Below, in pieces: positions 16,065 through 16,965 of a stretch of 38,859 nucleotides of DNA. The notes below the pieces were generated by a model. That model saw only the letters and a program-made list of their open reading frames with translations, was not told the origin of the DNA and did not search any database. How positions within the stretch are numbered: the stretch's first letter is position 1; each line of letters opens with the position of its first letter. This DNA is from Desulfovibrionales bacterium. GTDB lineage: Bacteria > Desulfobacterota > Desulfovibrionia > Desulfovibrionales > Desulfomicrobiaceae. The stretch is taken from the NCBI GenBank assembly GCA_012729655.1, contig JAAYCS010000073.1, positions 1 through 38,859 of the forward strand, in the 5' to 3' direction. Made by a program: the position numbers and the translations under genes.

Positions 16065-16091
16065 TAAAGTTTTTTTCCGCCTGTCCGATAA
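16065..16091 (+). promoter_or_regulatory. Sigma-28 (FliA) promoter
   Basis: The sequence TAAAGTTT (16065-16072), an 11-base spacer, then TCCGATAA (16084-16091) matches the sigma-28 consensus TAAAGTTT-N11-GCCGATAA at all but one base. The predicted start is near 16098, giving a leader of about 16 bases to the GTG start at 16114. It would drive the FlgM-like gene and flgM. Confidence 0.93.
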
Positions 16092-16113: not shown

Positions 16114-16530
16114 GTGACAGTGAGCCCATTTCTTGTCAAAAACGTGATGCGGACCTATGACCAGCAGCAGGAGACCGGCAGGCGGATCGCCAGGTTCAAG
16201 AAATACATGGACCGCGCCGGAATGGGAGACTCCGTATCCATTTCCAGGGAGGCCAAACGGCGCCAGCTCGTGGAAAAAGTGGCCAGGGAAATCGTGGACA
16301 ACCTTATCGGTTCCGAGAGTTCCAATCCGGTGGTGCAGGATATCAAGAGGCAGCTTGCCAGGGAATTTGGAAATGACCTCGTTTTCAGATACCCTTCGGA
16401 CGGAAACGGGCTGCAGATCCTCAAAAGAACAGACATTGGCGTTGCGGAATTGACCAACGGACAAAAGGATGCTTTCATGCAGCGTCTGTGGGAAGTCGCC
16501 GTAACCCGGGTTGACGAGACAATGCTGTAG
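16114..16530 (+). CDS. Small FlgM-like protein encoded upstream of flgM
   Basis: This 138-residue, charged, soluble protein starts at GTG with AGAGG at 16101-16105. It lies directly behind the sigma-28 promoter and ahead of flgM, so it is a late flagellar gene. Its residues 39-48 (DSVSISREAK) match the FlgM segment at exactly the same position in the neighbouring protein (DRVSISDEAR, 39-48), and both have Gln/Arg-rich N-termini. The C-terminal half differs from FlgM and lacks an obvious sigma-28-binding helix pair. A paralogous regulator, a FlgM partner or a secretion-related protein are all possible. I recall an uncharacterised gene in the same place in Desulfovibrio vulgaris. Confidence 0.7.
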   Translation: MTVSPFLVKNVMRTYDQQQETGRRIARFKKYMDRAGMGDSVSISREAKRRQLVEKVAREIVDNLIGSESSNPVVQDIKRQLAREFGNDLVFRYPSDGNGLQILKRTDIGVAELTNGQKDAFMQRLWEVAVTRVDETML

Positions 16531-16600
16531 GGGCTTTCCGGGGACGACATACGCCACCTGAAAGCCAGCAAGGCCGGTGTGTACCCGGCAGGAGCGGACC

Positions 16601-16903
16601 ATGACCATCAACACCATCACAACTCGTGTCGGATACGAATCGCATCGACTGGAACAAGCGGAACAGCAGCGTCAGGAGACCCAGCAGGTCCCCGCGCAGC
16701 AGGACGCCTCGTCCGACCGCGTATCCATATCCGACGAGGCCCGGATCAAGGCCGGCACACTGAAGGCCGCCCAGGAAAGCGATGGGGTGCGGCCGGATGT
16801 GGTGGCCGAGGCCAAGGCCAGGATCGCCGCTGGCCAATACAAGATCGACAGCCGGGATATCGCCGCCAGCCTGGTCAAACAGGAACTCGACCTGTGGGGG
16901 TGA
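16601..16903 (+). CDS. flgM: Anti-sigma-28 factor FlgM
   Basis: This 100-residue negative regulator binds sigma-28 (FliA) in the cytoplasm and, in known systems, is exported through the finished hook so that late genes switch on. The C-terminal helices VRPDVVAEAKARIAAGQYKI (about 65-84) and DIAASLVKQELDL are the typical sigma-28 contact region, and the DRVSISDEA segment (39-47) precedes it. CAGGAG upstream supports the start at 16601 rather than 16577. It is cotranscribed with the FlgM-like gene from a sigma-28 promoter, so it is under its own target's control, a standard feedback loop. A terminator follows. Confidence 0.93.
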   Translation: MTINTITTRVGYESHRLEQAEQQRQETQQVPAQQDASSDRVSISDEARIKAGTLKAAQESDGVRPDVVAEAKARIAAGQYKIDSRDIAASLVKQELDLWG

Positions 16904-16935: not shown

Positions 16936-16965
16936 AAAGCCTGGCCTCACCGGCCAGGCTTTTTT
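16936..16965 (+). terminator. Terminator after flgM
   Basis: A 9-bp stem AGCCTGGCC/GGCCAGGCT (16938-16946, 16952-16960) with a 5-base loop is followed by six T residues. It extends by AA/TT. It abuts the stop of the convergent fliW; read on the minus strand it has only a short T-run, so it would terminate fliW less strongly. Confidence 0.92.

Follow-up and report, generated by a model that had tools for sequence, protein, structure and literature searches.

A DVU0524-family protein encoded ahead of flgM behind a predicted sigma-28 promoter: a candidate FlaG-like protein of the flagellar export gate

Does the gene that lies between a sigma-28 promoter and flgM in the genome of a Desulfomicrobium-like bacterium (Desulfovibrionales) encode a second FlgM, or another flagellar protein that is made together with FlgM? 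The locus was analysed in a window of 38,859 nucleotides (the whole stretch of DNA under study; contig JAAYCS010000073.1 of assembly GCA_012729655.1, forward strand), and the features are collected in Table 1. The sigma-28 promoter pattern had one match in the window and none in 100 shuffles; the matching element agrees with the consensus at 15/16 positions, and its 3' end lies 22 nt from the GTG start of a gene for a 138-aa protein. The stop codon of this gene and the start of flgM, which was identified by profile searches (TIGR03824, 46.1 bits; PF04316, 49.4 bits), are 70 nt apart. Between both genes no second sigma-28-like site was found ahead of flgM (best 9/16, background about 9.5), and the initial annotation was thus right to place both genes behind a single near-consensus sigma-28 promoter. 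Judged from its sequence, the hairpin with T run downstream of flgM appears to terminate the two-gene unit before the convergent fliW.

Table 1. Features of the two-gene unit (positions in the window).
Feature	Position	Strand	Evidence
Sigma-28 promoter TAAAGTTT-N11-TCCGATAA of the two-gene unit	16065..16091	+	Pattern search; same element 5' of orthologues
DVU0524-family gene, 138 aa, GTG start	16114..16530	+	NF041863, 90.7 bits (cut-off 40)
N-terminal DVU0524 domain, residues 1-64, two predicted helices	16114..16305	+	NF041863 profile positions 1-64; AF2
FlgM-like segment DSVSISREAK, residues 39-48 of the 138-aa protein	16228..16257	+	Pattern and profile comparison
FlaG-like C-terminal domain, residues 72-138, predicted helix-strand-strand-strand-helix	16327..16527	+	FlaG HMM matches in orthologues; hhalign; AF2 topology
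flgM, anti-sigma-28 factor, 100 aa	16601..16903	+	TIGR03824 and PF04316 above cut-offs
Matching segment DRVSISDEAR, FlgM residues 39-48, first positions of PF04316	16715..16744	+	Sequence; PF04316 alignment
Putative terminator, 10-bp perfect hairpin then T run	16937..16961	+	Sequence; RNA fold z = -5.7

The 138-aa protein was assigned to NCBIfam NF041863 ('DVU0524 family FlgM-associated protein'), a model that comprises the N-terminal 64 residues only and names no function; the match was above the curated cut-off and spanned residues 2-65 (profile positions 1-64 of 64). Members of the family were found in 48 of 61 relatives, with Desulfomicrobium and Desulfonatronum among the named close ones, and in 125 of 395 genomes from a phylum-wide sample, compared with 0/14 control genomes; DVU0524 was mentioned in no paper found by literature search. 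The gene is therefore real and conserved, and belongs to a family that has been named but not characterised. Some members are only about 70-110 aa in length and lack the long C-terminal half, among them some that adjoin flgM, so that this half is not essential everywhere. At one locus of a nearly complete genome (L032 in G441, 1277-1732) the family gene is broken into two overlapping frames, by a frameshift or a sequencing error.

The C-terminal half, which lies outside NF041863, was compared with FlaG. Pfam FlaG (PF03646) gave no match to the 138-aa protein itself at E<=1 and matched four orthologues at the same threshold (best 3.6e-4), and an HMM built from 29 FlaG proteins of the same phylum picked up four orthologues (1e-8 to 1e-5; 54 sequences searched), each in its C-terminal half. 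When 75 family C-termini were aligned with FlaG by hhalign, the match reached 95% (E 2e-8, 49 columns); the window's own clade was matched to FlaG directly at 33% (E 4.5e-4) and to the FlaG-like clade at 97% (E 3.5e-11, 72 columns), and with the smaller set none of 200 column shuffles scored as high as the real alignment in the three FlaG comparisons. Since the direct match of the window clade is only 33%, the link to FlaG runs through the orthologues: by profile comparison, the C-terminal half of the family is a distant relative of FlaG, and for the 138-aa protein the direct link is weak. A separate, canonical FlaG is encoded in the same assembly (L075, G000:C44:11096-11320; 62.8 bits). The 138-aa protein of the DVU0524 family thus comes in addition to it, as a further FlaG-like protein whose role cannot just be the one of FlaG. 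With FlaG it has in common the related C-terminal half, the predicted strand order and the nature of a late flagellar gene, but it differs in its N-terminal domain and in its linkage to flgM.

Structure prediction was performed in two AF2 runs, both of low confidence (pLDDT 62 and 65). Helices were predicted for residues 5-35 and 43-66 of the N-terminal domain with low to moderate confidence, and for the C-terminal half the order H-E-E-E-H, as in FlaG, with modest confidence. In Foldseek searches with these low-confidence models, Helicobacter pylori FlaG (6jsx) was at rank 1 for one model (E 0.22, non-significant) and outside the top 50 for the other; a profile match to the same entry covered residues 82-130 (E 0.24). 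Sequence search of solved structures gave no significant natural relative of the 138-aa protein, and the entries that had low E values in this search were designed helical proteins and were attributed to composition. HP1076, a FliS co-chaperone, was listed at a low rank in one of the Foldseek searches and was rejected, PF16522 giving no match.

Gene neighbourhoods were then compared. Among the first 56 distinct loci, flgM was the next gene downstream in all but one, which was cut by a contig end. In the full set of 123 distinct loci, 95 were linked to flgM (74 with the long form) and 28 were not, a few of these being cut by contig ends: 8 followed fliS, 7 preceded a response regulator gene with no fliS in view and 13 were unassigned, contig ends cutting some of them. 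All 15 loci that followed fliD-fliS or preceded a response regulator gene encoded shorter forms, and three genomes had the order flaG-fliD-fliS-(fliT-like)-DVU0524-family gene-response regulator. The order of the window, with the DVU0524-family gene and flgM followed by convergent fliW-flgL-flgK, recurred in several families. A sigma-28 site with at least 13/16 agreement, scored within 120 nt upstream (shuffled means about 9-9.5), was present at 79/95 flgM-linked loci and at 18/28 others (4/8 fliS-linked, 6/7 response-regulator-linked, 8/13 of the rest). As such sites lead most loci of both kinds, no association of the gene is more constant than that with the sigma-28 promoter. Whereas the named family without a function was already known, and the protein of the window agrees with it over the full model and in its position next to flgM, the FlaG-like C-terminal half and the sigma-28-led contexts independent of flgM are new.

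A role at the export gate is suggested by analogy. PMC12445086 (citing Waller et al. 2024, PNAS 121:e2414393121) describes Campylobacter FlaG as a secreted protein that limits the length of the filament and is in competition with FliS-flagellin for FlhA, on which FlaG and FliS act as antagonists at sites near each other. By this comparison, there is about an even chance that the 138-aa protein is a late (class 3), sigma-28-dependent flagellar protein that acts at FlhA in the manner of Campylobacter FlaG. It would be made after export of FlgM, when sigma-28 has been released; its FlaG-like domain would dock on FlhA, and the docked protein would modulate how late substrates are delivered, among them FliS-flagellin and probably also FlgM or FlgM-sigma-28, FlgM being encoded on the same mRNA. 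Like Campylobacter FlaG, it might itself be secreted. The N-terminal domain, through its FlgM-like segment, may contact a partner that is common to FlgM. A wider proposal is that of a phylum-wide control layer, in which a protein made by sigma-28 combines a FlgM-like segment for contact with a FlaG-like domain for docking at the gate. One operon would then balance sigma-28 release, FlgM export and flagellin export at FlhA; this proposal we regard as rather unlikely.

The same neighbourhoods bear on a related explanation, in which the protein is dedicated to FlgM, as its export adaptor or as a partner secreted with it: it would bind FlgM or FlgM-sigma-28, present it to the gate and set the rate of FlgM exit. 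Such a role would agree with the 95/123 loci in which flgM is the next gene, on the same strand and behind one promoter; the FlaG-like half suggests docking at the gate, and the common segment could mark a shared binding partner. However, 28/123 loci are unlinked to flgM, and in 14/15 genomes of the non-linked kind that were checked FlgM is encoded elsewhere, and a dedicated adaptor or partner is accordingly an unlikely explanation.

For the preferred role as a FlaG-like protein at FlhA, the part that remains to be placed is the segment which had given rise to the question of a second FlgM. The motif D-x-V-S-I-S-x-E-A-K/R at residues 39-48 of both products, on which the initial annotation was based, was confirmed on the sequence (DSVSISREAK in the 138-aa protein, DRVSISDEAR in FlgM). 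When the profile of 37 N-terminal domains was compared with that of 36 FlgM sequences, the match was 86% over 26 columns, with a score of 32.7 compared with at most 20.1 in 200 column shuffles of FlgM; with larger sets (123 family and 94 FlgM sequences) the values were 73% and 21 columns, and the segment of family members away from flgM matched the FlgM profile at 78%. The likeness is thus above chance but short (21-26 columns). A relaxed form of the motif occurred three times in the 2.84-Mb assembly, in the two adjacent genes and in topoisomerase I; the third was taken as chance, and a common flagellar signal in the genome was rejected. Significance of the identical position 39 was rejected as well, because the motifs start at the same residue of both proteins in only 6/53 genomes scored. 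In several lineages whose DVU0524-family gene adjoins flgM the motif is degenerate; as it is also kept in members away from flgM, the segment is a property of the family and not a mark of its neighbour. Either shared ancestry or convergent binding of one partner may be behind these columns. The FlgM chains of the solved entries 1rp3 and 9wsf include the segment that matches the motif. In a separate observation, the FlgM profile weakly matched the N-terminal part of SipD over the motif region (2ym9_A, 7rye_F; E 0.22), probably by chance, although the segment may occur again among proteins secreted by type III systems.

From the motif and the promoter it had been proposed that the first gene may be a diverged FlgM paralogue, or a protein with a secretion or regulatory signal in common with FlgM, and that the two form a two-protein anti-sigma system. 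As a paralogue, it would be a second anti-sigma factor which binds sigma-28 via the common segment and the next helix. Besides the profile matches of the segment, the sigma-28 promoter in all types of context agrees with what is expected of a feedback regulator, and in a six-frame scan of the assembly with the FlgM model the 138-aa gene was the only other place that was scored (11.2 bits, E 1.3, cut-off 25). Profile searches with PF04316 and TIGR03824, however, gave no match to the 138-aa protein at E<=1, and none of 63 family members matched PF04316 at E<=0.01. The two proteins have in common one 10-residue segment and a helix start, in addition to their promoter and operon, but the likeness ends after about 26 columns: the sigma-28-binding C-terminal helices of FlgM (VRxxKVxxLKxxIxxGxYxxDxxxIAxKM) are absent, the N-terminal domain is a different one, and family C-termini (n=75) matched FlgM at 0.5% by hhalign and are FlaG-like instead. 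In the orthologues, too, the likeness does not go on beyond the motif, which at the level of sequence is the outcome that the initial annotation had named as refuting its proposal. The degenerate motif in lineages that retain the gene beside flgM, and the separate FlgM of genomes which carry the family gene elsewhere, also argue against an anti-sigma factor. By the profile searches and the short extent of similarity, the 138-aa protein is not a paralogue of FlgM, and the two-protein anti-sigma system found no support; what held of the proposed companion gene is that it is conserved, co-oriented with flgM and provided with a non-random segment, and its product may have a regulatory signal in common with FlgM. 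A second anti-sigma factor is therefore improbable, and of this explanation only the weak form survives that the short segment might touch sigma-28. Four genomes (G231, G335, G355, G411) had two matches each to the FlgM model above cut-off, some of them in long frames, which are possible second copies of FlgM.

A chaperone function for filament proteins, as a co-chaperone of the FliS type or a FliT-like chaperone, suggested by shorter members directly after fliD-fliS(-fliT-like) in several lineages and by the helix-rich fold predicted by AF2 at low confidence, is very improbable, as the gene of the window sits with flgM instead and FliS_cochap (PF16522) gave no match to it at E<=10.

To our knowledge, little is known about the balance of flagellar export and sigma-28 release outside enteric models. 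The operon may tie the switching-on of late flagellar genes to flagellar export, and a role of its first product at FlhA offers a testable function for a family so far named after its neighbour alone. If an anti-sigma factor and a FlaG-like protein are indeed paired in this way, a single promoter would govern both the timing of late genes and the growth of the filament across a large anaerobic group of bacteria. Away from flgM, six loci (L176, L178, L179, L183, L184, L185) consist of a sigma-28-type promoter, a gene for a DVU0524-domain protein of 66-69 aa and a response regulator gene; loci of this type often carry a further regulator-domain protein and possibly represent a sigma-28-driven signalling unit.
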